64,000 nt of DNA from Xylanibacter brevis ATCC 19188 (lineage in GTDB: Bacteria; Bacteroidota; Bacteroidia; Bacteroidales; Bacteroidaceae). Location: assembly GCF_000621725.1 (NCBI RefSeq), contig NZ_JHXM01000009.1, positions 62,001 to 126,000 of the forward strand, in the 5' to 3' direction. Positions 29,733 through 48,716 of the stretch are shown one piece after another (within the stretch, counting starts at the first letter, position 1; each line of letters begins with the position of its first letter). The position numbers and the translations under genes were made by a program. Under the pieces are notes generated by a model. It worked only from the letters and a program-made list of their open reading frames with translations. It was not told the origin of the DNA and made no database searches.

Positions 29733-29756
29733 ACGCTTATTTAGTTATAATTGCTA

Positions 29757-29764
29757 CAAAAATA
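29757..29764 (-). promoter_or_regulatory. -7 box of the malQ-susB-pullulanase-susA operon
   Basis: CAAAAATA on the plus strand gives TATTTTTG on the minus strand, 25 bp before the malQ ATG. The operator centre lies 62.5 bp upstream. Confidence 0.7.
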
Positions 29765-29820
29765 GCAATTTTATGGATTACTATTTTGCTTCTATGGATA
29801 TATTTCGAATTTTGTTGCAC

Positions 29821-29832
29821 GTAAACGTTTGC
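29821..29832 (-). promoter_or_regulatory. LacI-type operator upstream of malQ
   Basis: GTAAACGTTTGC, 11 of 12 bases of GCAAACGTTTGC, lies between the MFS gene and malQ. It sits at the same distance from the malQ -7 box as the other copies do from theirs. Confidence 0.75.
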
Positions 29833-29845
29833 ACAATGCCAAATA

Positions 29846-31174
29846 TTAGTCGGAAGATTTACCCCTAATAATAGTTACACAGAGTGCACCCACTGCCAGC
29901 ATAGCGCCTGCAATGAACATCATGTTGTACTGATGACTGCCCACCAGCGAGAGGATGACACCACCCAACAGGGCTGCCGCAATCTGAGGCAAACAGATGG
30001 TGCAGTTGAACAAGCCAAGATAGGCGCCCATGTGTCCGTAGCCCTGAAGGGCATTGGTGACCAGTGCAAACGGCATGGCCAACATGGCTGCCCATGCGCA
30101 ACCGATTAGCAAGAAGGGGACAAAGAGCACATACTGATCGTGTACAAAGGGGACTAGCGCGAAGCCCAGGCCACCCAGCAGCAGACTGAAGGCATAGGCA
30201 AATTTCACATTTTTGAACTGAGGCAGTACCATGGCCCACAATACTGCGCCTAACGTTTGCACACCAAAGACAATACCTGTCCAGTTGCCTGCCTCCTGAT
30301 AGCCTGCCGAAGCGACATCCGTTGTGCCCCATACGGTATCAGAGATAGTGCCCGTGGTATAGTTCCACATATACAGGAAGGCGGCCCATGAGAAGAACTG
30401 CACCAGTCCTACCTGCCAGAATGCAGCTGGCGCCTTGCGCAACAGCGCAATCCAGTTGGCACTTTCTTCCTTCTGTTCAGAAGGTGCGTTATACTCTACA
30501 TATTCCTGTGGCGTCCACTCCTTCACCTTGAGGGTCGTATAGATCACACAGAGGATCAGGATAAGTGCACCTATATAAAAGGAATAGATAACCGAATCGG
30601 GCACCACACCCGTAGGAGCGGTGTTGGCGATACCTACAGCCGTGAAGATGAAAGGAAAAGCAAAGCCGATGAGTCCGCCGGCATTACACAAGAACGACTG
30701 GATGGAATAAGCCTTCGTCTTCTGTTTCTCATTGACCATATCGCCCACCAACATCTTGAAAGGCTGCATAGCCATATTAATAGAGGTGTCGAGAAACATC
30801 AGGGCACAGGCGCCAAACCACAAGGCGGCACCCACCGAAAGACCGAAAGAACCCGCATTGGGCAGTAGCAACATGACGAGAACAGCCATTGCTGCACCGA
30901 CGAACAGATAAGGAATACGACGACCGAAACGCGTCCAGGTATTGTCGCTAAGCGTGCCGACAATGGGTTGCACAAGCATGCCCATCAATGGAGGCAGCAC
31001 CCAGAAGAAACTGAGTGAATGAGGATCAGCACCTAGCGTGGCAAAGATGCGAGAGATGTTTGCACTCTGCAGCGAATAAGCTATTTGTACGCCAAAGAAA
31101 CCAAAGCTCAGGTTCCAGAGCTTCCAAAAGTTTAAATTAGGTTTTTGTTTCATATTGTTTTGTTTCTTAGTCAT
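29846..31174 (-). CDS. MFS sugar transporter, SLC45/GPH-like, probable maltose/maltodextrin importer
   Basis: A 442-residue membrane protein with about twelve hydrophobic segments. The early sequence F-W-K-L-W-N-L-S-F-G-F-F-G-V-Q and the loop L-S-D-N-T-W-T-R-F-G-R-R (about residue 78) match sugar permeases of the SLC45/GPH type found beside maltose genes in Bacteroidetes. It lies between the LacI regulator and malQ, on the same strand, so inner-membrane uptake of maltose or short dextrins is the likely role. An internal ATG at 31153 is an alternative start; neither has a clear ribosome binding site. It probably is transcribed with the LacI gene, 55 bp upstream. Confidence 0.88.
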   Translation of the reverse strand: MTKKQNNMKQKPNLNFWKLWNLSFGFFGVQIAYSLQSANISRIFATLGADPHSLSFFWVLPPLMGMLVQPIVGTLSDNTWTRFGRRIPYLFVGAAMAVLVMLLLPNAGSFGLSVGAALWFGACALMFLDTSINMAMQPFKMLVGDMVNEKQKTKAYSIQSFLCNAGGLIGFAFPFIFTAVGIANTAPTGVVPDSVIYSFYIGALILILCVIYTTLKVKEWTPQEYVEYNAPSEQKEESANWIALLRKAPAAFWQVGLVQFFSWAAFLYMWNYTTGTISDTVWGTTDVASAGYQEAGNWTGIVFGVQTLGAVLWAMVLPQFKNVKFAYAFSLLLGGLGFALVPFVHDQYVLFVPFLLIGCAWAAMLAMPFALVTNALQGYGHMGAYLGLFNCTICLPQIAAALLGGVILSLVGSHQYNMMFIAGAMLAVGALCVTIIRGKSSD

Positions 31175-31229
31175 CAGTACTTCGTTTGGTTCCCTCAGGA
31201 ACGCTCGTTGGCCAACATCCCGTCAGTGT

Positions 31230-32273
31230 TCACCTCGTGGTGCCCCTGACAATCAGGCGTGTTCTGACCAGTCGCCTCTCTACATGATCTCTTGGGATAG
31301 TGCCTTCTACATAACCAATGAGGATATTGGCAGCCTCCTCGCCCACCATCTCGCCGCGCTGCTCTACCGTGGTAAGCATCGGGTCGCAAGACGTGGCCCT
31401 GATGCCATTGGTAAAGCCACAGATAGACACATCTTCGGGCACACGCATACCCATATGTTTCACCGTGTAGAGTATGCCTAAAGCTGTATCATCGTTGATG
31501 GCAAAGAAGGCATCGGGATAGACGTCACCATCGAAAAGCGTCGGTGTCATCAACTCGGCATCGTGACGTGTGTCACAGATGCGTGTCATCGATTCGTCAA
31601 ACGGGATCTTATTCTTCAACAGCGCATCCTTATAGCCATTGAAACGGTTCTTGGACGTTTCCAGGTTCAGCGGTGAACCGAAATAGGCAATGCGACGACA
31701 ACCTGTGCGGATGAGATAGCTCACGGCATTGAAGGCACCCATATAGTCATCTACCACTACCCGACTGGCGTTGATGCCCGTACATATTCTATCATAGAAA
31801 ACCAGGGGCACACCAGCTTCTATCAACCTGTTGAAGTGATCGTAATTATGAGTATCCTTCGATTGAGACACAATGACACCACAAACTTTCATCTCAATGA
31901 ACGACTGACACAGCTTGGTCTCCGTCTCGTAGTGCTCGTTGCTCACTGCCACCACGATATGGTAGCCATGGGCTGCCGCCTCCTCCTCGATACCTTTCAG
32001 GACAGAAGAGAAATAATAGTGTACCAGTTCTGGCAGAATCACACCGATCAGTTTCTGAGGTTTAACCTTTGACAAACGCAACATCTCTGCCAAATGGTTG
32101 GGAACGAAATTATGCTCGCGTGCAAACTGTTGTATGCGCAAGCGCTGCTCCTTTGATATGCGGGGAGAATCTTTCAAGGCTCGCGACACCGTAGCAACGG
32201 AGATGCCCAGTTCCCTTGCTATGTCTTTCATTGTCAACGAAGTATTCTCTTTCATGTCGTTTTGGATATTCAT
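31230..32273 (-). CDS. LacI-family transcriptional regulator of the starch locus
   Basis: A 347-residue protein. The N-terminal helix-turn-helix reads M-K-D-I-A-R-E-L-G-I-S-V-A-T-V-S-R-A-L, followed by a hinge and a periplasmic-binding-protein-like sugar-sensing core (I-G-V-I-L-P-E-L about residue 75, F-A-I-N-D-D-T-A-L-G about 265). The open frame begins with a TTG at 32291, but the -7 box at 32289-32296 shows transcription starts later, so ATG 32273 is chosen; ATG 32255 is also possible. It stands where other species carry susR. The palindromes near GCAAACGTTTGC in front of the starch promoters are its probable binding sites. The fixed position well upstream of each promoter suggests it may activate rather than block transcription. 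Confidence 0.92.
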   Translation of the reverse strand: MNIQNDMKENTSLTMKDIARELGISVATVSRALKDSPRISKEQRLRIQQFAREHNFVPNHLAEMLRLSKVKPQKLIGVILPELVHYYFSSVLKGIEEEAAAHGYHIVVAVSNEHYETETKLCQSFIEMKVCGVIVSQSKDTHNYDHFNRLIEAGVPLVFYDRICTGINASRVVVDDYMGAFNAVSYLIRTGCRRIAYFGSPLNLETSKNRFNGYKDALLKNKIPFDESMTRICDTRHDAELMTPTLFDGDVYPDAFFAINDDTALGILYTVKHMGMRVPEDVSICGFTNGIRATSCDPMLTTVEQRGEMVGEEAANILIGYVEGTIPRDHVERRLVRTRLIVRGTTR

Positions 32274-32288
32274 AGTTTTATGATGTTG

Positions 32289-32296
32289 CAAAATTA
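32289..32296 (-). promoter_or_regulatory. -7 box of the LacI regulator promoter
   Basis: CAAAATTA on the plus strand gives TAATTTTG on the minus strand. Its first base is 62.5 bp from the centre of the operator at 32353-32364. Confidence 0.6.
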
Positions 32297-32352
32297 TTAA
32301 ATAATTAAATCGGGTGTTCTCCTATGAACTTATTTCGTTAGCAAATAAAATT

Positions 32353-32364
32353 GCAAACGTTTGC
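32353..32364. promoter_or_regulatory. Perfect LacI-type operator between divergent lacI and susC
   Basis: GCAAACGTTTGC is a perfect 12-bp palindrome. It lies exactly midway between the -7 boxes of the two divergent promoters (62.5 bp from each), so one site can serve both. Confidence 0.8.
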
Positions 32365-32420
32365 ACCACTTACTATAACGATTTTAATCATTAAAAAGTA
32401 TCAACGGATTGAAAAAAATC

Positions 32421-32428
32421 TATCTTTG
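32421..32428 (+). promoter_or_regulatory. -7 box of the starch susC operon
   Basis: TATCTTTG matches TAnnTTTG and gives a leader of roughly 110 nt before the susC ATG at 32547. Confidence 0.7.
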
Positions 32429-32546
32429 CAACGGATTTCTAACTATAACAGCTAAAACGATAAAGACAAACAAAGGCCCATTTGAACAACAATAAACAAT
32501 AACATATTATACTAATAACTAACTTTTAATTAATTAAACTATTGTA

Positions 32547-35500
32547 ATGATGAAGCAGGTAAACATTAAATTACCATTCAGGATGTTAGCCCTTGTTGTG
32601 GGCCTTTTCCTGGCTATGGGAGCCTTTGCACAGAACATTACGGTGAAAGGTCATGTGAAAGATGCTACAGGTGAAGCTATCATCGGCGCAACTGTACGCG
32701 TGGCTGGCACACAAAATGCCACCATTACCGACTTCGACGGTAACTTCACGCTGCAAGCCAAGCAGGGAGCCGACATCCAGATTTCCTATGTAGGTTATCA
32801 GATGGCCACCGTGAAAGCTGCTGCAAACTTAGAGGTAGTCCTTAAGGACGACACCGCAGTTCTTGAAAACGTCGTAGTTATTGGTTACGGACGCGCAAAG
32901 AAAAGCGACCTGACCGGCTCTGTTACAGCCATCAAACCTGATGAAAAGAACCACGGCCTGAACGTCAATGCACAAGACATGATCAGTGGTAAGATTGCCG
33001 GTGTGAGTGTCATCTCTGGTGACGGTCGTCCCGGCGGTGGCGCCCAGATTCGTATTCGTGGCGGTTCTTCTCTGAACGCCTCTAACGACCCTTTGATAGT
33101 TATCGATGGTTTGGCCATGGACAACTATGGTGTACAGGGTTTGTCCAACCCCCTCTCTATGGTAAACCCGAACGATATCGAGTCGTTCACCGTGCTGAAG
33201 GACGCTTCAGCTACCGCAATTTATGGTAGCCGTGCATCAAATGGTGTCATCATTATTACTACCAAGAAAGGACGCTCTGGACAGAAGCCCACGTTCAATT
33301 ATAACAGCAACGTATCTATCGCTAGCGTGAAGAAGACTACTGATGTCCTTGATGGTCCTGGTTTGATGAGCTATATCAAAAAACTCTATGGAGAGGACAG
33401 CGATGCATATGCCGAGCTTGGCTATTATGATGCAAACGGAAACAAGCAGTATGCCAACACTGATTGGCAAGATGAGATTTTCCGGACAGCTCTCTCTACA
33501 GACCACAACTTAACGATGTCTGGTGGCATGAAGAACATGCCCTATCGTGTCTCTATAGGTTATACCAATCAATCAGGTGTAGTCAAGACCGACAAATTTG
33601 AGCGCTTTACAGGTAGTTTCAACCTCTCTCCCAGTCTACTGAAATTGAACATCAACGGTAAGGGTATGATAGCAAAAAATCATTATGCGCCTGGTGTAGT
33701 AGGAGCAGCTATAGCTATGGATCCTACGAAGGCCGTTAAGAGCGATTATCCTGTTTATCGTGACTATTTTGGTGGCTATGTTCAGAACTTTACTGGTGCA
33801 AGCTATGATGGCGCAGCAAACTGGAAATACACCAACAAGGGAACAGGAAACCCTGTTGCTGCATTAAATCAGACTAACGACCGTGCTACCTCAAAGTCTT
33901 TGATTGGTAATATTGAAGCCGACTATTCTATTCATGGCTTCGAAGACCTGCATTTGCACATGAATGCCGCCATGGATCTTTCAACTGGTAAGCAGGATAC
34001 AGACAGGCAGCCAAACTCTGCCGTTGCCAACTACTATGGTTGGACAAACTGGAGCACGATGGACACGTATAACCTGCAGCTATCATTATACGCACAATAC
34101 ATGAAGGATTTTGCTGATGTACATCACTTTGACGCAATGGCCGGTTATGAGTGGCAGCATTTCCACAAGCAGACAGACTGGTTCGGCCATGGAACCTACC
34201 CTGCTGGCAACACAAAATATGCAGAGGGTACTTATTACGATGCTCCTAAGGCAGACCAGATTACAATGTATAAGACAGAGAACTTCCTTGTATCTTTCTT
34301 CGGCCGTTTGAATTACTCATTGATGGACCGCTACATGCTGACCTTCACACTTCGTGCTGACGGTTCTTCACGTTTCAATTGGATGAAGGGAAATCCAAAC
34401 CAGCAATGGGGTTACTTCCCTGCCATGGCCTTGGCATGGAAGATGAAGGAAGAGTCTTTCCTCAAGAACATTGACGTGCTCACCGATGCCAAGCTCCGCT
34501 TAGGTTGGGGTATCACCGGTCAGCAGGAAGGTATTGGAGATTACACCTACATTCCTGTATTCAAGCCAAACACAAACTCACATGCCTTATATCCTGTACT
34601 GGATAATGGTACGACTTACCGTCCTGAGGCCTTCAACGCCCATCTGACATGGGAGAAAACAACAACATGGAATGCCGGTATTGACTTATCATTCTTGAAC
34701 AACCGACTTGAATTTAATTTAGACTGGTACTACCGTAAGACTACCGATCTGATTAACACCGTATTTGTAGCAGCCGGTTCTAACTTCCGCAACAAGGTGA
34801 CTAGCAATATCGGTTCACTACACAACACCGGTTTCGAGTTCATGACAACCGTACGCCCTATTCAGACCAAGGACTGGCAGTGGGAAGTTAGTTACAACTT
34901 CACCTATAACCACAACGAGATTGACGAGTTGATAGATGGTGTCGGCGCGGATTACTTCGTTGAGACTGGTGGTGGACTGACTGGTACGGGTGGTAACATC
35001 CAGGCCCATACCGTAGGTAAGCCAGTCAGTGCCTTCCACGTTTACCAGCAGGTTTACGACCAAAATGGCAAGCCAATCCCCAACGCATTTGTTGACCGCA
35101 ATGGTAATGGCTATCTGGATAGTGGCGACCGCTACTATTACTACAAGCCTGCAGCTGATGTGCTGATGGGTCTGTCTTCAAAAGTACAATACAAGAATTG
35201 GGACCTTGGTTTCTCTATGCGTGCAAGCTTGGGCAACTACGTGTTTAACAGCACAGCTTCAGGTTCCAGCAATGTCGGCGCTGGTTCAGTTTACACCAAT
35301 GGTAACCTGAACAACCTGCGCACTGTAGCGGTAGAACGAGGCTTTACTAATGTTTCGCAGCAGCAGTATGCTTCAGACTACTTTGTAGAGAATGCTTCGT
35401 TCTTGAAGCTGGATAACATAACTTTAGGTTATAGCTTTAACAAGCTGTTTGGTACTTCGATAAACGGACGTGCATATGCAACTGTGCAAAATGTTATGAC

Positions 35501-35606
35501 GATTACCAACTATACAGGAATTGATCCTGAGGTAGCCAGTGGCGTTGATGGCGACATTTACCCACGTCCTATCACGACGATTCTTGGTGTCAGCTTGAAC
35601 TTCTAA
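32547..35606 (+). CDS. susC: SusC, TonB-dependent starch oligosaccharide transporter
   Basis: A 1019-residue protein: signal peptide (ending G-A-F-A-Q), carboxypeptidase-like domain (about 30-110, G-H-V-K-D-A-T-G-E-A-I-I-G-A), TonB box (V-V-V-I-G-Y-G), plug domain containing I-R-I-R-G-G-S-S-L-N and the barrel, ending L-G-V-S-L-N-F. It imports maltooligosaccharides together with SusD. It is the first of four plus-strand genes and is divergent from lacI, sharing the perfect operator at 32353-32364. The substrate assignment rests on the amylase, pullulanase, GH97 and GH77 genes around it. Confidence 0.96.
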   Translation: MMKQVNIKLPFRMLALVVGLFLAMGAFAQNITVKGHVKDATGEAIIGATVRVAGTQNATITDFDGNFTLQAKQGADIQISYVGYQMATVKAAANLEVVLKDDTAVLENVVVIGYGRAKKSDLTGSVTAIKPDEKNHGLNVNAQDMISGKIAGVSVISGDGRPGGGAQIRIRGGSSLNASNDPLIVIDGLAMDNYGVQGLSNPLSMVNPNDIESFTVLKDASATAIYGSRASNGVIIITTKKGRSGQKPTFNYNSNVSIASVKKTTDVLDGPGLMSYIKKLYGEDSDAYAELGYYDANGNKQYANTDWQDEIFRTALSTDHNLTMSGGMKNMPYRVSIGYTNQSGVVKTDKFERFTGSFNLSPSLLKLNINGKGMIAKNHYAPGVVGAAIAMDPTKAVKSDYPVYRDYFGGYVQNFTGASYDGAANWKYTNKGTGNPVAALNQTNDRATSKSLIGNIEADYSIHGFEDLHLHMNAAMDLSTGKQDTDRQPNSAVANYYGWTNWSTMDTYNLQLSLYAQYMKDFADVHHFDAMAGYEWQHFHKQTDWFGHGTYPAGNTKYAEGTYYDAPKADQITMYKTENFLVSFFGRLNYSLMDRYMLTFTLRADGSSRFNWMKGNPNQQWGYFPAMALAWKMKEESFLKNIDVLTDAKLRLGWGITGQQEGIGDYTYIPVFKPNTNSHALYPVLDNGTTYRPEAFNAHLTWEKTTTWNAGIDLSFLNNRLEFNLDWYYRKTTDLINTVFVAAGSNFRNKVTSNIGSLHNTGFEFMTTVRPIQTKDWQWEVSYNFTYNHNEIDELIDGVGADYFVETGGGLTGTGGNIQAHTVGKPVSAFHVYQQVYDQNGKPIPNAFVDRNGNGYLDSGDRYYYYKPAADVLMGLSSKVQYKNWDLGFSMRASLGNYVFNSTASGSSNVGAGSVYTNGNLNNLRTVAVERGFTNVSQQQYASDYFVENASFLKLDNITLGYSFNKLFGTSINGRAYATVQNVMTITNYTGIDPEVASGVDGDIYPRPITTILGVSLNF

Positions 35607-35644
35607 CACAGTATTAAGGTAAAACAGTAAAAAGAATAAAAGTT

Positions 35645-37330
35645 ATGAAACTGAAATATATAACAACTGTGGTCGCTATTGCCTGCGGAATGTTTTTCAC
35701 GTCATGCGTGAAAGACTTGGAGGTTGAAAATATTAATCCCCAAGATCTGTCAGACTTCAACCAAGACTATATCTTCAACAAAATCTATAGTAATCTTGTT
35801 CTCACTGGACAGACAGGTCCTAATGGTAGTTCCGACTTGGACGACATCGATGAAGGTACTTCAAATATGACACGTCTTATTTGGTATCTTAATGTGCTCA
35901 CTACAGACGAAGGACACTGCTGGTGGAACGACCCTGGTATTCCTGAGTTGAATCATAACTCATGGACAAACTCGAATGTGCTGACTAAGGCACTATATTA
36001 CCGACTCATGTTTGGTGTGACACTATGTAATTTCTATCTGGACAGTGCCACGGGATCTGACGCAGCGACTCTTCAGAAGCGTGCCGAAGCTCGTTTCATG
36101 CGCGCATTCCATTATTTCTATCTGATGGACCTCTATGCCAATCCACCGTTCCTGACTAAATTGTCGAGCGAAAAAGCGCCTCAGATTCAGCGCGCAGACC
36201 TCTTCAAATATTTGGAAGGCGAACTGTTAGACATTATTGGAGAAGGCTCTGGCAATGAGGTATTAGCAGACGCGAAGGCTACCGACTATGGCCGTGCCGA
36301 CAAGGCTGCAGGCTATCTGCTGCTGGCTCGCATGTATCTAAACGCAGAAGTATATACAGGTACTGCTCGTTGGAACGATGCGAAGACCTATGCAGACAAA
36401 GCGATAAACACCAGCTATAAGCTTTGTACGACTCCGAAGAATGGTTTCAGCGCTTACCAATTACTCTTCATGGGCGATAACGACACCAACGGTGCTCAAG
36501 ACGAAATCATTCTCCCTGCCCTTCATGATGGTGACAAAACCCAGACATGGGGTGGTTCACTCTACATGATAGCAAGCAACATGTCAGACAAGATGCGTGA
36601 AATGGATCTTTATGGTGCTACTGATGAAAATGGTGATGCCATCAAGGGTTACGGCACCAATCAGGCATGGGACCGTGGCGTACGCGCACGCAAACAGTTC
36701 TCTCAGGTATTCTTTGGCAGCAAATCATCCTCTGCCCCCAGTGGTCTTCCCAAGGACATCGTAACGAGTGCTGGAGACGACCGTGCTATTTTCTACACCA
36801 CTGGTCAGACCATGAGTATCGAGACTGAATCATCTACAAGCAATGGTCTCGTCTATATGAAATACAACAACCTCCATGCTGATGGCACATCGGGACACGA
36901 CCCCAGCGGTCGTTTTGTCGACACCGACTATCCCATGTTGCGTCTTGCTGAGGCATACCTCATTTCTGCTGAAGCCGATGCTCGTCTGAATGATGGAACA
37001 TGTACATCGGCAGGCATAGAGCGTATCAAGGATTTGCGTAAGCGTGCCAATGTTAAGAGTTCCAACAAGTACGATGGAACAAGCCCGGAGGCTTTAACCA
37101 GTGTTACACTGGAGAACATCTTCCAGGAATGGTCACGCGAGTTTGGCTTTGAAGGAATGCGCCGTATGGTACTTGTTCGCTGGAACCGCTTTGCAGGTCA
37201 GAGCGACTATACTTGGGAATGGATGGGCGGAACAAAGGCCGGAACACAGTTCGACAAGCGCTTCAATATCTTCCCCATTCCTGACAGCGAATTGAATGCG
37301 AACCCCAACATTAAGCCTAATTACAATTAA
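35645..37330 (+). CDS. susD: SusD, starch-binding outer membrane lipoprotein
   Basis: A 561-residue SusD-family lipoprotein with lipobox F-F-T-S-C (Cys about residue 21). Recognisable features are N-I-N-P-Q-D-L near the N-terminus, the TPR helix sequence R-F-M-R-A-F-H-Y-F-Y-L-M-D-L and the end F-P-I-P-D-S-E-L. W-W-N-D-P-G-I-P-E-L near residue 97 resembles the segment of the Bacteroides SusD used for starch binding. It follows susC after 38 bp and would cap the SusC barrel. Confidence 0.95.
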   Translation: MKLKYITTVVAIACGMFFTSCVKDLEVENINPQDLSDFNQDYIFNKIYSNLVLTGQTGPNGSSDLDDIDEGTSNMTRLIWYLNVLTTDEGHCWWNDPGIPELNHNSWTNSNVLTKALYYRLMFGVTLCNFYLDSATGSDAATLQKRAEARFMRAFHYFYLMDLYANPPFLTKLSSEKAPQIQRADLFKYLEGELLDIIGEGSGNEVLADAKATDYGRADKAAGYLLLARMYLNAEVYTGTARWNDAKTYADKAINTSYKLCTTPKNGFSAYQLLFMGDNDTNGAQDEIILPALHDGDKTQTWGGSLYMIASNMSDKMREMDLYGATDENGDAIKGYGTNQAWDRGVRARKQFSQVFFGSKSSSAPSGLPKDIVTSAGDDRAIFYTTGQTMSIETESSTSNGLVYMKYNNLHADGTSGHDPSGRFVDTDYPMLRLAEAYLISAEADARLNDGTCTSAGIERIKDLRKRANVKSSNKYDGTSPEALTSVTLENIFQEWSREFGFEGMRRMVLVRWNRFAGQSDYTWEWMGGTKAGTQFDKRFNIFPIPDSELNANPNIKPNYN

Positions 37331-37355
37331 GCAAACCTAATAATACTATACAGAT

Positions 37356-38573
37356 ATGAAAAAGTTAAGCATTATATTTTCATTGATGGTAAGTGTTTTC
37401 TTTATGGTAGCTTGTGATGCTGATCGCGATGACAATCCCGTCATAGACCTGTCAAAGACACAAGAGCCCATTACATTAAACACGCCGACGTTTGCCAATA
37501 GTACATACGACTTGGCAAACACAGACTCAGTGACGTTGACCTGTACGGCACCCAGCTACGGATTTCCAGCAACGGTGACATATGTTATACAGATATCAAT
37601 AGATAGCGACATGTCTGATCCCAGTGAGCTGACAACAACCTATTATCAGAATAAGATGATTGTTCCTGGCAAAGAGATTGCCATGGCAACCACCAAGCAG
37701 ATGATTAAAAAGAAAGGACTGAAACAGGAAGACTTCCCTGTTGAGACACCAGCTTACATACGTATCCGTGCTTACATTGCCGGAACTCCTGAAACAGAGA
37801 CTACGTCAAACATCGTTAAACTGAACAAGGTCAAACTTAATTTCGCTCTGCCTGATGTTGTGATGCCTGACTCATTATTCGTCATTGGTACATTTAACGA
37901 TAACGATTGGGAGAAAGCAGTCAAGACCATACAGGTCAACAACTCTACCCAGAACCATTGGCGTATGGTTTGGCTTGACAAGAGGGGTGTTCGCCTCAGT
38001 CCAATTAAGGGAGAGCCAAACTTTGACGACAATATGATCACTCCAGTCTACAAATGTAATACACTTGGCTTCTATGTATCTAACGACGGACTTGTAACGA
38101 CAGATACTCCAGGTTGGTACATTATGCTGGTTGAAGGCGTCGGCAATAATGAGAAACGTCAGTTAACCCTGACCTACAGATTCTACGAAGCTAATGTATG
38201 GCTCATCGGTCCTGCATTAGAAGATGTTCTTGGTGATGACATTAAGGACTTCTGGGTGGAAAAGACATTGAGAACCAACTATACAGACTATGTTAAGTTT
38301 ACGGTTCCTACAACAATGAATGGCCAGTTCGTATCTCCCCCACTGCCAGGAGACACCGAGGCTGACGATGGCGGTGTACGTGCATATGTAAGCATCAAGT
38401 GGGATTGGTGGCAAACAGAGTTCATGGCATATCCCAAAGACCGCACCAGCAGTTCATGTGTTATTAAGTACCGTGGTAATGGTGATGAGGTGAAACCGTT
38501 TGTCAGCGCAAGCAAAGGACAGCGTATCTATCTGAATTTCTGCGACGATACGGGTGAGATAAAAAATGAGTAG
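37356..38573 (+). CDS. SusE-like surface starch-binding lipoprotein
   Basis: A 405-residue lipoprotein (lipobox F-M-V-A-C) following susD by 25 bp. The N-terminal part (about 35-150) is an immunoglobulin-like SusE domain (S-V-T-L-T-C-T-A-P-S-Y-G-F-P), followed by beta modules beginning at L-F-V-I-G-T-F-N-D-N-D-W and V-W-L-I-G-P-A, which are the starch-binding repeats of the SusE/SusF group. It holds starch at the cell surface for the SusCD importer. It is called SusE-like because SusE and SusF are hard to separate by sequence alone. Confidence 0.85.
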   Translation: MKKLSIIFSLMVSVFFMVACDADRDDNPVIDLSKTQEPITLNTPTFANSTYDLANTDSVTLTCTAPSYGFPATVTYVIQISIDSDMSDPSELTTTYYQNKMIVPGKEIAMATTKQMIKKKGLKQEDFPVETPAYIRIRAYIAGTPETETTSNIVKLNKVKLNFALPDVVMPDSLFVIGTFNDNDWEKAVKTIQVNNSTQNHWRMVWLDKRGVRLSPIKGEPNFDDNMITPVYKCNTLGFYVSNDGLVTTDTPGWYIMLVEGVGNNEKRQLTLTYRFYEANVWLIGPALEDVLGDDIKDFWVEKTLRTNYTDYVKFTVPTTMNGQFVSPPLPGDTEADDGGVRAYVSIKWDWWQTEFMAYPKDRTSSSCVIKYRGNGDEVKPFVSASKGQRIYLNFCDDTGEIKNE

Positions 38574-38591
38574 TAATATAATAACATAGAA

Positions 38592-39767
38592 ATGATTATG
38601 AAAAAGATATTATCATTATTGATGCTCGTCATCGCAGGCTGGTCACTGACCGCCTGTGATGAAAGCCACAATGACTATCCGATGCCACCTGTTTACCCGC
38701 AGGAGCCCGTAATAACAGTTGACGGTTTCCAGGCCGCAGTTTCTGCCGCAGCCACAACCCCTATTGACTTAGGTGTCATGACGGAAGATGCTGTCAAGAT
38801 GTTTACCCTTACCACAGGAACTCTACCCAGTGGAATAACTTTTGAGAATTTACGCATCGAAGCAAGACCTGTGGACAAACCTAAGTCACAGCCTCATGAT
38901 GTTATGGCAACAGAAGACGGAAATGTCACTAAGGAGGAGCTTACTAATCTGGTGTATGCTTTCTATGGCAAAAAAGCTACAGAACGTACATTCACAGCTC
39001 AGGTACTGGCAAATGCAGTTCATGACAAAGAAGCGCAATTAATCTACCTGTCCGACCCCTTCACAATCAGGATTACACCTGAGAAGCTTGAAGATCCGTA
39101 CTACTATCTGTTTGGTAAGGCAACAGGAAATGTGACGGCCGACAATGCTTACAAGTACGTCATGACTCCTATTGAAGGTAACGACATGGCATTCTCGTAC
39201 ACCACAAAGTATACCGCACGTACGGCTGGTGACATATTGGTATGGAATATCAGCTACTGGAAGAACGACTATCCTAAGAAGGACTTCTCTAAAGTCTATG
39301 CAACTGAAACCAAAAACGACAAGTCTATAAACGGAAATGTTGTTCAGGGCAACAAGGACAACTTCTTCATTGCTCCAACAGCTGAGTACTACACATTCAC
39401 CATTGATCTGGAGGCACTTACCTTTAAGTGGGAAAAACTTGAGAACCAGAATCCTACCACTTATACCAGTATTGCCATGTTACTTGCCAGCGACAACAGC
39501 GAGATTGAACTCACTGCTGTTGATCCTACCAAGCATAATTGGTACTATCGTCATACATTCGCCAGCGACACTGACCTGAAGTTCCGTGCTAATCATAGCG
39601 ATGACATGGTTTGGGGCTATGGCGAAAACGACAAGGAATGGAATGCCGGTATTGATTGGGCAAAGATTTGCACAAAGGACAAGAAGAACATTACTGTACC
39701 AGCAGGTACCTATGATGTTTACTTCTGTGACATCACTGGTGCAGCCCACTTTGTCCCCGTAGAATAG
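38592..39767 (+). CDS. SusF/SusE-like surface starch-binding lipoprotein
   Basis: A 391-residue lipoprotein (W-S-L-T-A-C, Cys about residue 19) 18 bp after the SusE-like gene. A second ATG at 38598 gives a cleaner signal peptide and is a possible start. Starch-binding-like modules follow the N-terminal Ig domain, with Y-Y-L-F-G-K-A-T-G-N-V and the aromatic pattern typical of this group (W-Y-Y-R-H-T-F, W-G-Y-G-E-N-D-K-E-W-N-A-G). It is the last gene of the susC operon; a hairpin follows at 39792. Confidence 0.83.
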   Translation: MIMKKILSLLMLVIAGWSLTACDESHNDYPMPPVYPQEPVITVDGFQAAVSAAATTPIDLGVMTEDAVKMFTLTTGTLPSGITFENLRIEARPVDKPKSQPHDVMATEDGNVTKEELTNLVYAFYGKKATERTFTAQVLANAVHDKEAQLIYLSDPFTIRITPEKLEDPYYYLFGKATGNVTADNAYKYVMTPIEGNDMAFSYTTKYTARTAGDILVWNISYWKNDYPKKDFSKVYATETKNDKSINGNVVQGNKDNFFIAPTAEYYTFTIDLEALTFKWEKLENQNPTTYTSIAMLLASDNSEIELTAVDPTKHNWYYRHTFASDTDLKFRANHSDDMVWGYGENDKEWNAGIDWAKICTKDKKNITVPAGTYDVYFCDITGAAHFVPVE

Positions 39768-39791
39768 CAATCATCTGATTATCAATTAAAA

Positions 39792-39826
39792 GAAGTGAGG
39801 TGTGGTTAATGCAACCCACCCACTTC
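39792..39826 (+). terminator. Imperfect hairpin after the susCDEF-like operon
   Basis: GAAGTGAGGTGTGGTT (39792-39807) pairs with AACCCACCCACTTC (39813-39826) with two single-base bulges, followed by CTTACAACCTTAG. It is a weak terminator candidate. Confidence 0.45.
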
Positions 39827-39845
39827 CTTACAACCTTAGAAACGC

Positions 39846-39857
39846 GAAAACGTTTGC
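39846..39857 (+). promoter_or_regulatory. LacI-type operator upstream of the three-repeat starch-binding gene
   Basis: GAAAACGTTTGC matches 11 of 12 bases of the susC operator. Its centre is 61.5 bp upstream of the -7 box at 39913. Confidence 0.75.
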
Positions 39858-39912
39858 ATCTCGCTAATTACATTTTTTTTCAAGAACGTGAACACACATT
39901 CCAAAAAATATT

Positions 39913-39920
39913 TAATTTTG
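39913..39920 (+). promoter_or_regulatory. -7 box of the three-repeat starch-binding gene
   Basis: TAATTTTG fits TAnnTTTG; the ATG is at 39999. Confidence 0.65.
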
Positions 39921-39998
39921 CCACAGAAAGGACATGACGCGTTAAAACAACAGAACATTAATTCTTACTATAATTATTAACTTTAAAACGAAACAATT

Positions 39999-41180
39999 AT
40001 GAAGAAAATTTTTACGCTATTAGTAATGCTGGCAGCAGCCCTTGGCATGCAGGCACAAGACACATGGACCATTGCTGGTGATGCAGCTTTGATGGGTGAT
40101 GGTTGGAATCCTGCTTCAGAGACTAACGTCATGACCACGACTGACAACATCCACTATACTTTGGTCAAGGAGAACGTGATGTTGAAGAAAAACACCTATT
40201 ACTTCAAAGCTTGTGTCAATGGAGGTTGGCCTAATGCTATCGGTAAAGATGGAGTGAGCGGTGATGACGCTCAGAACGTACCCATTGAAATTGCAGAAAA
40301 TGGTGCATACAGAATCACATTCTCACTTGATCTTACTGAGGGGAAAGTTGCGTTAAATGCAGCAGCCGAAAAAACCGGTGAATACGATGGGCCAACGGAA
40401 AGCACCGTAGTCCTCGCTGGTGCTACCGCAATTTTTGGTGAAAGCTGGAAAGCAGATGCTGAAGCTAATACAATGATTACAAAGGATGGTATTCACTATA
40501 CTTTGCAAAAAACTGATGTCATTCTGGAAGCATATGTTAATTATGAATTCAAAATTGTAGTTGACGGACAATGGAATGGTAATGCTGGCGAAGGCAAATT
40601 TGCTTCAAAAGACGAAGAGGGAAAAGATTATCCCAACATTACGATTGCAGTTGTAGAGAATGGTAAATACACCATTAGCTTTAGCGTAGACCTTGAGAAC
40701 AGAGAATTTACCGTGGAAACCACAAAGACAGGTGATGTTATCATTGCTGAAAAGACTTGGACAATTGCAGGTAGCAGCGAACCTATCTTCGGTACAACTT
40801 GGGATCCTACAAATACAAAAAACGACATGGTTAAGTTGGAAGACGGCTCATTCGAACTGATTAAGCCTAACATCGAACTTGATGCAACAGAATTCCAATT
40901 CAAAGTATGTGCAAACCATAGTTGGGACGAGTCATATGGTGATGGTGGTGAAAACATGAATTTCACAGTTGAGCTTGCTGGCACCTATGACGTCATCTTC
41001 ACATTCATTCCTGACTCTAAGTTCCTCTCAGTTGAATTGACGGAACCAGATCCAGCAGGAATTAGCACTGTAAAGACCATCAAAGCCAACAATGCTATCT
41101 ACAACATGCAAGGTCAGCGCATCAATAAAGCATTCCGCGGTATCGCTATCCAGAATGGTCGTAAGATGCTGATGAAGTAA
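39999..41180 (+). CDS. Free-standing secreted starch-binding protein with three tandem SusE/F-type repeats
   Basis: A 393-residue protein with an ordinary signal peptide (ending L-G-M-Q-A-Q) and no lipobox Cys. Three repeats of about 110 residues begin at W-T-I-A-G-D-A-A-L-M-G, V-V-L-A-G-A-T-A-I-F-G and W-T-I-A-G-S-S-E-P-I-F-G; each has a Y-T-L-x-K or F-E-L-x-K strand and a Y-x-F-K-V/A/I strand, the layout of SusE/SusF starch-binding modules. It ends with A-I-Y-N-M-Q-G-Q-R-I and I-A-I-Q-N-G-R-K-M. It has its own operator and promoter. It has no catalytic domain, so it likely serves to hold starch extracellularly, possibly as a partner of the two alpha-amylases downstream. Confidence 0.8.
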   Translation: MKKIFTLLVMLAAALGMQAQDTWTIAGDAALMGDGWNPASETNVMTTTDNIHYTLVKENVMLKKNTYYFKACVNGGWPNAIGKDGVSGDDAQNVPIEIAENGAYRITFSLDLTEGKVALNAAAEKTGEYDGPTESTVVLAGATAIFGESWKADAEANTMITKDGIHYTLQKTDVILEAYVNYEFKIVVDGQWNGNAGEGKFASKDEEGKDYPNITIAVVENGKYTISFSVDLENREFTVETTKTGDVIIAEKTWTIAGSSEPIFGTTWDPTNTKNDMVKLEDGSFELIKPNIELDATEFQFKVCANHSWDESYGDGGENMNFTVELAGTYDVIFTFIPDSKFLSVELTEPDPAGISTVKTIKANNAIYNMQGQRINKAFRGIAIQNGRKMLMK

Positions 41181-41227
41181 TATACTAATAATCGTAAATC
41201 GATACAACTCGATTTACAACAATACAT

Positions 41228-41265
41228 GAAGAGGCGGACATCCATGATGAGATGTCCGCCTCTTC
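41228..41265 (+). terminator. Terminator after the starch-binding protein gene
   Basis: A perfect 15-bp stem (41228-41242 with 41251-41265) around an 8-nt loop is followed by TATATTAC. Confidence 0.75.
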
Positions 41266-41276
41266 TATATTACAGG

Positions 41277-41288
41277 ACAACCGATTGC
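41277..41288 (+). promoter_or_regulatory. Degenerate LacI-type operator upstream of the first alpha-amylase
   Basis: ACAACCGATTGC matches 9 of 12 bases of GCAAACGTTTGC, including the central CG. Its centre lies 61.5 bp upstream of the -7 box at 41344, the same distance seen at the strong sites, which is the reason for calling it. Confidence 0.5.
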
Positions 41289-41343
41289 ATATACACAATT
41301 AAGTTTTTACACTAAAAGAGATATAACCAATCATTAATATTCG

Positions 41344-41351
41344 TATATTTG
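41344..41351 (+). promoter_or_regulatory. -7 box of the first alpha-amylase
   Basis: TATATTTG fits TAnnTTTG; the ATG is at 41381. Confidence 0.65.
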
Positions 41352-41380
41352 CAAGACAATAACTATAAAGCGCGAAAACG

Positions 41381-43399
41381 ATGAAAAAGCTACTACTTTC
41401 ACTGCTAACGCTTCTTGTATCTTCACCAATGATGGCACAGGGTTGGCCATCAGAATACAAGGGAGTCATGTTGCAAGCCTTTTATTGGGACTCCTATAAC
41501 AAGGCTTCAAAATGGACAAATCTACAAGCACAGGTTGACGAGTTATCACAGTATTTCCAACTGGTATGGATACCACAGAGCGGTAACTGCAATGGAAAAT
41601 CCATGGGTTACGACCCATACTATTTGTTTCCAGGTACTGACCACTATACCAGTTCTTTTGGAAGCGAAAAGCAATTACGCTCAATGATTAGCACCTTTAA
41701 AGAAAAAAAAATAGAAACAATTGCTGATGTAGTCATCAACCACCGAAAAAGCGGAAGCGGATGGTTTGGGTTTCCCACAGAAACATATAACAACATCACC
41801 TACACGATGACCTCGACAGATGTCTGCAGCGACGATGACAACGGCAAGGCACAAACAGAAGCCACACGTCTGAAAGTGGCCCTCGGCGCTGCAGACACAG
41901 GCGAAGGTTGGGATGGCATGCGCGACCTTGATCACAAGAGCGAGAATGTTCAAAATATAGTCAAAGCCTATCTCCATGCGTTACTGGAGGATTTAGGCTA
42001 TGCAGGCTTCCGCTATGACATGGTAAAGGGTTATAGTGGCACATTCACAGGCCTCTATAATAAAGACTCTAGCCCCAAATACTCGGTGGGAGAATACTGG
42101 GATGGAAATGCGTCAAATGTAAAATCATGGATTAACAGCACTAAGGTTGATAATGTCATTCAAAGTGCAGCTTTCGATTTTCCATTCAGATATACTGTCC
42201 GTGATGCATGCAATAATGGAAACTGGGCAAAACTAGCCAATAGTAGTCTTGCATCAGATGGCAACTACAGACGATATGGTGTCACCTTCATTGAGAACCA
42301 CGACACGGAATTCCGTTCTGCAAATGCGCCACAAGATCCCATCAAAAAAGACACATTGGCAGGTAACGCACACATGCTGGCAATGCCAGGAACACCTTGT
42401 GTATTCTTAAAGCACTGGATTGACTGCAAGGAATTCATCAAGCCAATGATTGAGGCCAGAAGACTAGCAGGCATTAGCAACACCAGTAGTATCACACGAC
42501 TAAAGAACAGCACCGCTTGTTATGCGTTCTCTACAGACGACCGTCTGATAGCCGTGCTTGGAAACGTATCAAACTATGCACCAACCGACAATGGATGGGT
42601 AAAGATTTTGGATGGCTACCATTACGCTTATTACATCCGCAATACAGTTGGAAATACAGCATGGATCAGTCATGCATCAGGCAAGTATCAAGGAGAGCAG
42701 AAGGTAATACTTGCTGCAATAACTACTCAGAATGCCCGCATAGTTTATACTACAGACGGTTCAACTCCTACGGCTTCGAGTCCTAGTGTAGCTAGCGGTG
42801 AGAAGATTACCATTCCTATTGGCACAACAACCTTGAAGGCTGCCATGCTTGTCAATGGAAACATCACAGGCGACATCATCACACGTGAGTATGAAGTGGA
42901 ATATGTAGAGCCTTTCTCTATTCCGAGTTTCTGTACCGTAGCTGATGGTGAGGTGTGCGCCTTCTTCGAAGCTCCTATAACATGGACGAATACCATCAAG
43001 TGCTGGGCGTGGAACGCCAACAATAGCAACGCCAACTATACGGGGGGCACATGGCCAGGCGTTGAATGCACCAAGTTAGGAACGAACAACGGGAAGGATG
43101 TATGGAAGTGGACATTCAAAGCTACCGATTACAAGGGTAGCGGTAATGCCACCCAACCTACTCTTATCATTTTTAGTAGCAATGGTGACCCACAGACAGA
43201 CAACCTGACATTCAAGAACGGAGGATACTACAATCAAGATGGCTTACGCGACATTGTCACAGGTATCGGTAACGTCGTTAATAAGCAACAAAACAGATTG
43301 CAACGATATTATACCATAGACGGTCGCTATGCGGGAAACGACAAATCCACACTGCCGCACGGTATCTTTATCACCAACGGGAAAAAGTTCGTACGATAA
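41381..43399 (+). CDS. Secreted alpha-amylase, GH13, with C-terminal starch-binding module
   Basis: A 672-residue enzyme with signal peptide ending M-M-A-Q-G and no lipobox. The GH13 barrel (about 22-420) shows D-V-V-I-N-H, nucleophile Asp in G-F-R-Y-D-M-V-K-G-Y, acid Glu in V-G-E-Y-W-D-G and the third Asp in I-E-N-H-D-T-E. It is followed by a chitobiase-C-terminal-like Ig module (V-Y-T-T-D-G-S-T-P, about 450-510), a CBM26-type starch-binding module (about 520-630, W-A-W-N-A-N-N) and a short tail ending I-F-I-T-N-G-K-K-F-V-R. It would cut starch outside the cell. It is the paralogue of the next gene and stands in the role of SusG, but lacks a lipid anchor. Confidence 0.92.
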   Translation: MKKLLLSLLTLLVSSPMMAQGWPSEYKGVMLQAFYWDSYNKASKWTNLQAQVDELSQYFQLVWIPQSGNCNGKSMGYDPYYLFPGTDHYTSSFGSEKQLRSMISTFKEKKIETIADVVINHRKSGSGWFGFPTETYNNITYTMTSTDVCSDDDNGKAQTEATRLKVALGAADTGEGWDGMRDLDHKSENVQNIVKAYLHALLEDLGYAGFRYDMVKGYSGTFTGLYNKDSSPKYSVGEYWDGNASNVKSWINSTKVDNVIQSAAFDFPFRYTVRDACNNGNWAKLANSSLASDGNYRRYGVTFIENHDTEFRSANAPQDPIKKDTLAGNAHMLAMPGTPCVFLKHWIDCKEFIKPMIEARRLAGISNTSSITRLKNSTACYAFSTDDRLIAVLGNVSNYAPTDNGWVKILDGYHYAYYIRNTVGNTAWISHASGKYQGEQKVILAAITTQNARIVYTTDGSTPTASSPSVASGEKITIPIGTTTLKAAMLVNGNITGDIITREYEVEYVEPFSIPSFCTVADGEVCAFFEAPITWTNTIKCWAWNANNSNANYTGGTWPGVECTKLGTNNGKDVWKWTFKATDYKGSGNATQPTLIIFSSNGDPQTDNLTFKNGGYYNQDGLRDIVTGIGNVVNKQQNRLQRYYTIDGRYAGNDKSTLPHGIFITNGKKFVR

Positions 43400-43405
43400 A
43401 AAACT

Positions 43406-43443
43406 GCAACCAGCCTGAATGATTTTGCATTCAGGCTGGTTGC
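43406..43443 (+). terminator. Terminator after the first alpha-amylase
   Basis: A perfect 16-bp stem (43406-43421 with 43428-43443) and 6-nt loop is followed by TTTCATATTCC. Confidence 0.8.
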
Positions 43444-43462
43444 TTTCATATTCCTCACTCGC

Positions 43463-43474
43463 GCAAACGTTTTC
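43463..43474 (+). promoter_or_regulatory. LacI-type operator upstream of the second alpha-amylase
   Basis: GCAAACGTTTTC matches 11 of 12 bases of the susC operator. Its centre is 61.5 bp upstream of the -7 box at 43530. Confidence 0.75.
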
Positions 43475-43529
43475 ATTTTATCCTAGTCTCTTTTTGCACA
43501 CACGACACATGTACTATCACAAAAAAAAC

Positions 43530-43537
43530 TATTTTTG
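43530..43537 (+). promoter_or_regulatory. -7 box of the second alpha-amylase
   Basis: TATTTTTG fits TAnnTTTG; the ATG is at 43579. Confidence 0.65.
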
Positions 43538-47916: not shown

Positions 47917-47924
47917 TACCTTTG
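47917..47924 (+). promoter_or_regulatory. -7 box of a rightward promoter before the leader RNA
   Basis: TACCTTTG is a perfect TAnnTTTG box, with TTG words 20-26 bp upstream (47891 and 47895). The next possible coding start is over 300 bp away. Confidence 0.65.
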
Positions 47925-47935
47925 CATCATCAAAA

Positions 47936-48170
47936 GGTTAATAGATTGTTTTAGGTTAGTAGTAATATTTATAGTTTTAGGTTTTTAGTTATTGGTAAAA
48001 AAGAAAGTTTTCAACTGTAGGATAACAGGAGGTCGCTGTGAAGCTCCCTTTTAAACTTTCAAATTTTTAGTCCTTTGTGGATTGAAAATTTCTTTTAGAG
48101 AAAAAGGATTTTTAGTTAAACATAGGCTTGTTCCGCTGTTGCTCGAGAGAGTTGCAGCGGACTTTTTTTA
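47936..48170 (+). ncRNA. Candidate structured noncoding RNA or long leader
   Basis: The stretch runs from a strong promoter to an intrinsic terminator and has no open frame of note in its first 200 nt. It shows an 8-bp stem (48003-48010 with 48053-48060) closing a loop with two smaller hairpins (CTGT/ACAG and GGAG/CTCC), then a 13-bp hairpin with two G-U pairs (48061-48073 with 48079-48091), and finally the terminator hairpin. No known RNA family was recognised. It could also be the leader of the broken gene that follows. Confidence 0.5.
48131..48169 (+). terminator. Intrinsic terminator of the candidate RNA
   Basis: CCGCTG (48133-48138) and CTC pair with GAG and CAGCGG (48155-48160), with a small internal TTG/TTG loop, and are followed by ACTTTTTTT. 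Confidence 0.7.
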
Positions 48171-48242
48171 TATATATTCCAAGAACTTTTGGCTATATCG
48201 CAGAAAAGCAATAACTTTTGCAGTGCAAACTAATCGACTAAT

Positions 48243-48716
48243 ATTAAATCTAAAACCATTCTAACAATTACATTCCTTCTTTGCGCCACCATGACTATGG
48301 CCCAACAGTTGGCTTTTCCTGGTGCCGAAGGTTTTGCTGCCTTCCTCACCGACATGCCCCTTTCCGTGCGTCCCTACTATGCCAAGACGGACAACGACAA
48401 GCTGGCCTTCTTCATCGATGTCAGCAGCACTTCCAACAAGTGTCTGAACGTGGGAACAGCCGATGCCAATGGCACAGGTGGTCCGCTGGAATTCTTTAAT
48501 GGTCATGCCGACCGCACCCGTCTGCGCTGGGTAATAGAGCCCACTGCTTTCGACCCCACGGCAGGCATTCTCCCTATGCAACATCCCGTAGTCAAGTCAC
48601 GGTTCTACAACCTGCAAGGCACAGTCCTACAGAGCCGTCCATCTCACGGCATCTACATAGAAAGCTGCACAGGAAGCGATGGCACCCCCATCTTCCGCAA
48701 GTGTTTTCGCAAGTAA
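48243..48716 (+). pseudogene. Broken pectate-lyase-like secreted protein with ATT in place of ATG
   Basis: The frame, read from ATT at 48243, gives a classic signal peptide (K-S-K-T-I-L-T-I-T-F-L-L-C-A-T-M-T-M-A) followed by Q-Q-L-A-F-P-G-A-E-G-F, the mature N-terminus typical of Prevotella pectate lyases. The following glycine-rich G-G-R-G-G repeat of that family is missing; the protein instead runs into unrelated-looking residues and ends after only about 157 codons with R-F-Y-N-L-Q-G-T-V and a tail resembling the shared secretion tail. The first ATG (48291) falls inside the signal peptide. Loss of the start codon and most of the middle suggests a deletion pseudogene. Initiation at ATT is possible but rare. 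Confidence 0.6.

Follow-up and report, generated by a model that had tools for sequence, protein, structure and literature searches.

Among Bacteroidota, starch loci serve as the model of glycan use, with the membrane activator SusR as their textbook regulator. In Bacteroides thetaiotaomicron, SusR is an activator of the starch genes (PMC3878776; papers are cited here from excerpts). The sus loci of Bacteroides fragilis and Bacteroides uniformis are described without SusR, with a LacI-type regulator and an MFS transporter (PMC11633381), meaning that LacI-type regulators in SusR-less sus loci have already been published. Here, we discuss the starch locus in a 64,000-nucleotide stretch of the Xylanibacter brevis ATCC 19188 genome (contig NZ_JHXM01000009.1, positions 62,001 to 126,000), to which we refer as the window; the genome as a whole (label G000), that of a rumen-type Prevotella, comprises 3.49 Mb. 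At this locus, a LacI-family protein appears to take SusR's place, and the promoters have the layout expected of activator targets. From the comparisons below, we consider it likely that the LacI protein adjacent to the starch genes acts as an activator near −74, on one face of the helix. Among the matches listed from the open-licence literature (titles and abstract openings), no paper describes such a fixed distance, or a LacI starch activator, in Bacteroidota.

The predicted operator is a 14-bp palindrome with a central CG and the consensus TGCAAACGTTTGCA; its core, AAnCGnTT, is presumably that of a LacI-type operator. A preliminary description of this DNA placed related palindromes at positions 29821, 32353, 39846, 41277 and 43463, and all five were located, with no mismatch to GCAAACGTTTGC at 32353, one mismatch at 29821, 39846 and 43463, and three at 41277. 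These five palindromes serve six starch promoters, the centre of the one at 32353 being the midpoint between the −7 boxes of lacI and susC. Distances were measured from the palindrome centre to the first base of the −7 box, TAnnTTTG. Recomputing all six gave the values originally reported: 62.5 bp for malQ, susC and lacI, and 61.5 bp for the X25 gene (which encodes a starch-binding-type protein) and two amylase genes, amy1 and amy2. If the −7 box spans −12 to −5, the interval mapped in Flavobacterium (PMC9723704), the operator centres are at −73.5 or −74.5, and transcription would start near 29752 (malQ), 32284 (lacI), 32433 (susC), 39925 (X25), 41356 (amy1) and 43542 (amy2). At none of the six predicted promoters does the operator cover the core promoter or the start, as that of a classical LacI-type repressor would.

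A scan of the window for sites with up to three mismatches to GCAAWCGWTTGC and the required central CG gave 38 site/box pairs within 400 bp. Three of these pairs are at 61.5 bp and three at 62.5 bp, with at most two at any other offset. The window contains 33 sites with up to three mismatches, vs 29.2 expected, so by mismatch count alone the 41277 site would be a chance match; it nevertheless has the AAnCGnTT core and the right distance, and the identical site and distance are found in locus L005. Sites with up to one mismatch number eight in the whole genome. Four are in the starch locus, and the others are on C1, C12, C14 and C16, three of them within long open reading frames (ORFs) and one at an ORF start; none of these four has a TAnnTTTG box within 200 bp.

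The same spacing recurs in other Prevotella starch loci, where the preliminary description had proposed looking for it. We examined the best 80 of 142 loci from a scan with the LacI protein, in stretches reaching up to 10 kb from lacI; the loci belong to records of Prevotella and Prevotellaceae, in many cases genomes from ruminant metagenomes. Across offsets of −200 to +400, 210 of the 280 operator/box pairs lie at 61.5–63.5 bp (58 at 61.5, 139 at 62.5 and 13 at 63.5), and no other offset has more than four. We refer to pairs at this distance as “locked”. With the box reversed, none of 190 pairs fell at 60.5–63.5 bp; 122 of them fell at an offset of 0.5, with the reversed box on top of the operator. 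For two other palindromes, 1 of 63 and 0 of 13 pairs fell at 60.5–63.5 bp; the first also gave 14 pairs at 67.5 and 10 at 57.5, which are probably shifted reads of the same operators. Together, the pair counts in the relatives, the window scan and the controls rule out chance as the source of the fixed distance. A looser site rule gave 214 locks at 60.5–63.5 bp, of which 210 precede a homologue of a window starch gene or lacI, genes in the relatives being named by their match to window genes. Most of these locks belong to susC (77) and lacI (76), i.e., as many of the 80 loci, with both genes locked in 74; the rest belong to malQ (34), amy1 (12), X25 (6), amy2 (2), GH13 (2) and GH97 (1). Because loci are cut by contig ends or the 10-kb flank, the counts for distal genes are lowered. 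The remaining four locks have no ORF in reach (three) or precede an ORF without a match (one).

By comparison of the spacers between operator and box, it is the spacing that is retained, not the spacer sequence. Spacers of different genes have an identity of 0.30–0.39 across loci, vs 0.31 (standard deviation 0.06) for shuffled window spacers; within the window, the range is 0.25–0.49. Moreover, 20 of 216 spacers contain a hairpin (−9 kcal/mol or better) and a T-run, with the distance unchanged. These data bear on the possibility that LacI is an ordinary repressor whose operator position was inherited when a single ancestral promoter was duplicated in front of each gene. Such a history would suit the susC spacers, which are more alike among relatives (mean identity 0.52) than cross-gene spacers, and the X25/amy1 pair of the window, which shares 0.49. 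However, cross-gene spacers are mostly at or near shuffled identity, the hairpin-bearing malQ spacers keep their distance, order-level relatives change distance in ~11-bp steps (see below), and free drift of distance with spacer divergence is not seen in the present sample. The spacer identities and the hairpin-bearing spacers led us to reject common descent from one copied promoter, and we find a copied repressor promoter scarcely credible. As a separate observation, 18 of the 20 hairpin spacers belong to malQ promoters (L020, L022, L025, L027, L034, L040, L045, L048 and others), where the terminator-like hairpin ends just 5′ of the −7 box and the operator is still at 61.5 or 62.5 bp; here, a terminator-like structure seems to have replaced the −33 region while the operator was unmoved.

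Locked promoters also have a distinctive core. In the −33 window, TTG occurs in 20 of 216 locked promoters vs 19 of 59 ordinary TAnnTTTG promoters from the same loci (p = 4e-5), and TTTG in 4 vs 9 (p = 2e-4), the ordinary set having been chosen by a crude rule. Relative to that set, locked promoters show a weak −33/−35 element, a trait of class I-type activation, and the rarity of TTG fits dependence on an activator. The susC promoters have, in addition, a second conserved block ~+22 to +46 from the operator centre (a T-tract, then an A-tract and GTA.CAACG), which could be an UP-like site or a site for a second regulator.

In a sample of 121 genomes from the family, all 22 genomes with a LacI of at least 52% identity have a pair at 60.5–63.5 bp on one or both sides; the palindrome rule finds it in 20, and in two (L219 and L220) only a 2-mismatch rule does. 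Toward the divergent promoter, 17 of the 22 have their best site at 60.5–64.5 bp. Seven paralogue loci (L223–L229; 32–38% identity) have no pair at 60.5–63.5 bp. Two of these paralogous LacI proteins (L223 and L226; 36–38%) have the operator CGTAAACGTTTGCG at 25.5 and 51.5–52.5 bp, unlike the starch LacI.

Across the order, the distance changes in steps. The order sample comprised 110 LacI loci (L230–L339), 50 listed directly and 60 upstream stretches taken nearly by rank; 83 have a site with up to two mismatches. For each locus, phase was calculated for the divergent promoter relative to one operator, the best match. For perfect operators (n = 28), the distances are 51.5 (one locus), 61.5–64.5 (12), 72.5–74.5 (10), 84.5–85.5 (four) and 96.5 bp (one), giving a vector length of 0.90 at a period of 11.3 bp (none of 20,000 random sets is as high) and 0.83 at 10.5 bp. 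Allowing one mismatch (n = 41), the vector length is 0.85, and when distances of 59–66 bp are excluded (n = 23), again no random set of 20,000 is as high. Among 41 order-level loci whose divergent distance is phased, 34 have a susC-like gene, in either orientation, within the stretch. In a tree built from 65 LacI proteins (including two paralogues), the distance class switches 13 times, e.g., between the sisters L246 (63.5 bp) and L380 (85.5 bp); this is a quick tree without bootstrap, and two long-branch joins are flagged. Over a dozen family codes within the order show this promoter geometry. An upstream site at one-helix-face distances, the second class I-type trait, is therefore observed, with the 11.3-bp period coming partly from arrays (see below). 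A different position occurs in the outgroup family code f98, where the operator is 24.5–25.5 bp from the lacI −7 box in four of five loci. The operator in L230, L261, L262 and L263 is 61.5–62.5 bp from the divergent promoter and 24.5–25.5 bp from the lacI box; this latter spacing suggests self-repression.

Which protein binds the palindromes? Searching the genome gave two LacI-type regulators of full length, the second adjoining an altronate/galactarate dehydratase gene; one more match, close to the end of a contig, is a frame of just 97 residues. The starch LacI is the likely binder because the lock accompanies it in relatives and because the second full-length LacI, the sole other one found, is beside the dehydratase gene. 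By hand-reading, exact locked sites are present in 9 of the 22 genomes that have the LacI vs 1 of the 99 that lack it (Fisher p = 4e-7), in a test that joins two genome lists whose shared 121 genomes were inferred from genome labels. It is very improbable that a different activator acts on the palindromes and that the neighbouring lacI is incidental. In favour of a different activator, genome G018 (81% complete) has exact locked sites with no LacI relative at E ≤ 1e-50; such an activator is at odds with the Fisher comparison, the LacI-type core of the operator and the uronate-type neighbourhood of the second regulator.

The preliminary description also held that LacI replaces SusR. This is borne out at the level of the locus, where there is no SusR; elsewhere in the genome, on other contigs, are two remote SusR-like proteins, G000:C3:147136-148752 (34%) and G000:C1:211215-212804 (30%), which could act on the starch genes. 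The SusR query was the homologue L360 from G002, which is encoded beside GH13, GH97 and susC genes and carries DUF6377; this domain is not among the seven families matched by the window regulator, which therefore does not have the domain structure of SusR. In the 121 genomes, SusR (at least 47% identity over at least 500 residues) is found in 11, none of which is among the 22 with the LacI. Mutual exclusion was rejected as a conclusion, since ~2 joint genomes are expected by chance and the difference is not significant; G055 has a LacI at 54% and a SusR at 44%.

We propose that the LacI protein (31230–32273) binds the 14-bp palindrome centred at ~−73.5/−74.5 and, once bound, would activate the starch promoters by contacting RNA polymerase from upstream in a class I-like manner. 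The contact partner would most likely be the C-terminal domain of the alpha subunit, and a starch breakdown product (maltose or maltodextrin) may set the state of LacI. For Prevotella and its near relatives, this predicts positive feedback, since susC and lacI would both be driven from the central operator that they share. We infer both LacI as the binder and activation as its effect. The features that point this way are the fixed distance, its conservation, the ~11-bp steps, the independence of most of the spacer, and the rarity of the −33 TTG; a fixed upstream site, a core without a clear −33 element and mainly near-helical shifts form the footprint expected of an activator that touches polymerase. 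Of the original proposal that LacI, or some other factor, is an activator, the comparison upholds the locked upstream site and LacI as the likely binder, with binding and activation themselves remaining predictions. A phenotype is available from Flavobacterium: a lacI transposon mutant in a polysaccharide utilization locus with starch-type enzymes lost the fucoidan colour response, and susC and maltose transporter mutants showed the identical loss, with possible polar effects noted by the authors (PMC9131120). We count this mutant, of a possibly related LacI, for activation.

Several observations weigh against this proposal. In the order sample, 27 of the 110 loci have no site with up to two mismatches, several LacI proteins at 47–51% identity (L231, L232, L264–L268, L270 and L271) have no operator/box pair, and no phasing is seen for the promoter on the lacI side (n = 8, p = 0.46; n = 14, p = 0.30). 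In the family, L212, L213, L216, L218 and L222 have no divergent pair near 62 bp by the best-site rule, the lock of L222 resting on its second-best site only. No lock was found among 27 class-level loci (L187, from the order, among them), which gave seven pairs at seven distances. A pattern search of the phylum gave 27 matches beyond the window's genome, three of them at the lock, with no peak; this is about the level of chance, since the search spans 31 gap lengths. A phylum-wide exact locked pattern was accordingly rejected, and a general distance rule for LacI proteins of the phylum is not supported: 29 phylum loci (of a much longer match list) and the 27 class-level loci share none, and the paralogues L223 and L226 have their own spacings. 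Given these class and phylum limits, the architecture is a matter of Bacteroidales, clearest in the window's family, rather than of all LacI proteins.

A further difficulty is that the best period, 11.3 bp, exceeds the 10.5-bp helical turn. Among 63 order loci with a unique operator, half-site copies occur at +12 bp in 28 and at −12 bp in 12, with no other shift in more than three; they build short arrays, e.g., in L234, L246, L257 and L324. Since these copies are 12 bp apart, part of the 11–12-bp stepping is array periodicity. That the order-level phasing is nothing but this 12-bp repeat, with no polymerase contact, is distinctly improbable: array-free order loci (n = 18; few, and some related) are phased too, at 60.5–62.5 (11 loci), 72.5 (one), 74.5 (one) and 93.5–96.5 bp (five), with no random set of 20,000 as high; any array would have to keep register with the promoter as well; and the family sample has single operators, with arrays not found.

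The last difficulty is that an identical footprint would be left by a repressor that contacts RNA polymerase from an upstream site, and that GalR-type contact repression would be phased too. LacI at −74 might keep RNA polymerase inactive, or block a second, CRP-like activator, until released by maltodextrin, and the distance would be fixed because contact is needed. The majority of LacI-family members are repressors, and GalR at −60.5 represses galP1 through alpha. Additional precedents are CcpA, which at the upstream lev cre represses by blocking LevR (PMC3463425), and the CRP-like BT4338, first named MalR, which affects maltose use in B. thetaiotaomicron (PMC5061871). Even so, we judge contact repression unlikely: the −33 TTG is rare in locked promoters, as fits dependence on an activator; the Flavobacterium lacI insertion mimics loss of the locus, possible polar effects aside (PMC9131120); SusR promotes transcription of its locus (PMC3878776); and so does the arabinan regulator BT0366 (PMC5061871).

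We therefore retain activation from near −74 as the preferred reading. More tentatively, and as something short of probable, there may be a class of sugar-specific LacI-family activators at starch loci in many Bacteroidales families, acting on one helix face, at ~−74 or ~11-bp steps away. In outgroups, with half-sites iterated exactly 12 bp apart, several dimers would possibly form one activating array. The arrangement at the starch locus itself offers a sugar-controlled switch that may be of use in Bacteroidales, and would illustrate, for comparison, how activators can arise in a family known chiefly for its repressors.

The genes of the locus are listed with the predicted operators and promoters in the table below. 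On the plus strand are susC, susD, a susE-like gene, a fourth gene, the X25 gene and two amylase genes; on the minus strand are lacI with the MFS transporter gene, and malQ with GH97-like, pullulanase and GH13 genes. The window regulator belongs to the LacI/GalR family, with both a LacI helix-turn-helix (PF00356; 55.7 bits, cut-off 27) and a periplasmic-binding-protein-like sensor domain (Peripla_BP_3, PF13377; 100.6 bits, cut-off 26.5). Outside the starch genes, the stretch 47917–48290 has a TAnnTTTG box followed by a ~370-base leader before an ORF at 48291 (141 aa, no Pfam match). Rfam at gathering scores had no match in the whole window, and a plasmid search with the intergenic region as the query had none.

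Table. Genes, predicted operators and −7 boxes of the starch locus (window coordinates)
Feature	Position	Strand	Remarks
malQ, 4-alpha-glucanotransferase (GH77) with CBM20	27120..29732	-	heads run with GH97-like, pullulanase and GH13 genes
malQ promoter −7 box TATTTTTG	29757..29764	-	predicted start ~29752
Predicted malQ-operon operator GCAAACGTTTAC	29821..29832	-	centre 62.5 bp from −7 box
MFS sugar transporter gene	29846..31174	-	behind lacI
lacI, LacI-family regulator	31230..32273	-	347 aa from ATG 32273; proposed activator
lacI promoter −7 box TAATTTTG	32289..32296	-	62.5 bp to operator centre
Predicted operator GCAAACGTTTGC (perfect)	32353..32364		common to divergent lacI and susC promoters
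susC promoter −7 box TATCTTTG	32421..32428	+	62.5 bp to operator centre
susC-like TonB-dependent receptor gene	32547..35606	+	
susD, susE-like and further gene	35645..39767	+	further gene in susF position, no Pfam match
Predicted X25-gene operator GAAAACGTTTGC	39846..39857	+	61.5 bp to box at 39913
X25-gene −7 box TAATTTTG	39913..39920	+	
X25 gene, starch-binding-type protein	39999..41180	+	pullulanase X25 domains
Weak predicted operator ACAACCGATTGC	41277..41288	+	AAnCGnTT core retained; 61.5 bp to box at 41344
Amylase 1 −7 box TATATTTG	41344..41351	+	
amy1, alpha-amylase 1	41381..43399	+	with CBM26
Predicted amylase 2 operator GCAAACGTTTTC	43463..43474	+	61.5 bp to box at 43530
Amylase 2 −7 box TATTTTTG	43530..43537	+	
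amy2, alpha-amylase 2	43579..45648	+	with CBM26

Other regulators share parts of this arrangement. At the E. coli gal promoters, GalR acts on polymerase from a site near −60, repressing P1 and activating P2. Like the window LacI, it is a LacI-family protein with an upstream site, but at a single locus rather than at a regulon-wide fixed distance. CRP activates class I promoters from −61.5, −71.5, −82.5 and −92.5, i.e., from an upstream site on one face in steps, as proposed for the window LacI. However, CRP is from another protein family, and the steps of window-type LacI proteins are nearer 11.3 bp, with a common position of −73.5/−74.5.

CcpA of Bacillus subtilis, a dual regulator of the LacI/GalR family, is like the window LacI in family. 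Its operators upstream of −35 go with activation in a helix-face-dependent manner, and CcpA–RpoA complexes are reported in the title of a reference of the same paper (PMC3463425). Calling activation unusual for the LacI family, as the preliminary description did, was therefore an overstatement. Among solved structures, the window LacI matches CcpA (1rzr) at 5e-37, and its best match is another LacI-family regulator (7ff4; 3.4e-40). It is not CcpA itself, because its NCBIfam ccpA score of 139.5 bits is under the cut-off of 442.35. Moreover, CcpA is global, has phospho-HPr as a partner and is more often a repressor, whereas the window LacI would regulate starch genes locally, from the same fixed position at each target. 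PckR and FruR/Cra of Proteobacteria are also LacI-family dual regulators: FruR/Cra activates gluconeogenesis genes, and PckR is a predicted activator from the position of its binding sites. They differ in serving central metabolism rather than a polysaccharide locus, and the excerpt of PMC4052901 states no regulon-wide fixed distance.

The nearest systems in function are the sus loci themselves. Likened by description, the LacI-type regulators of B. fragilis and B. uniformis are probably of the same kind as the window LacI, the excerpt of PMC11633381 giving neither their operators, nor the spacing to promoters, nor how they act. SusR, like the window LacI, is a regulator of starch genes beside susC; unlike it, SusR is a membrane protein of another family, as the DUF6377 of its homologue L360 illustrates.

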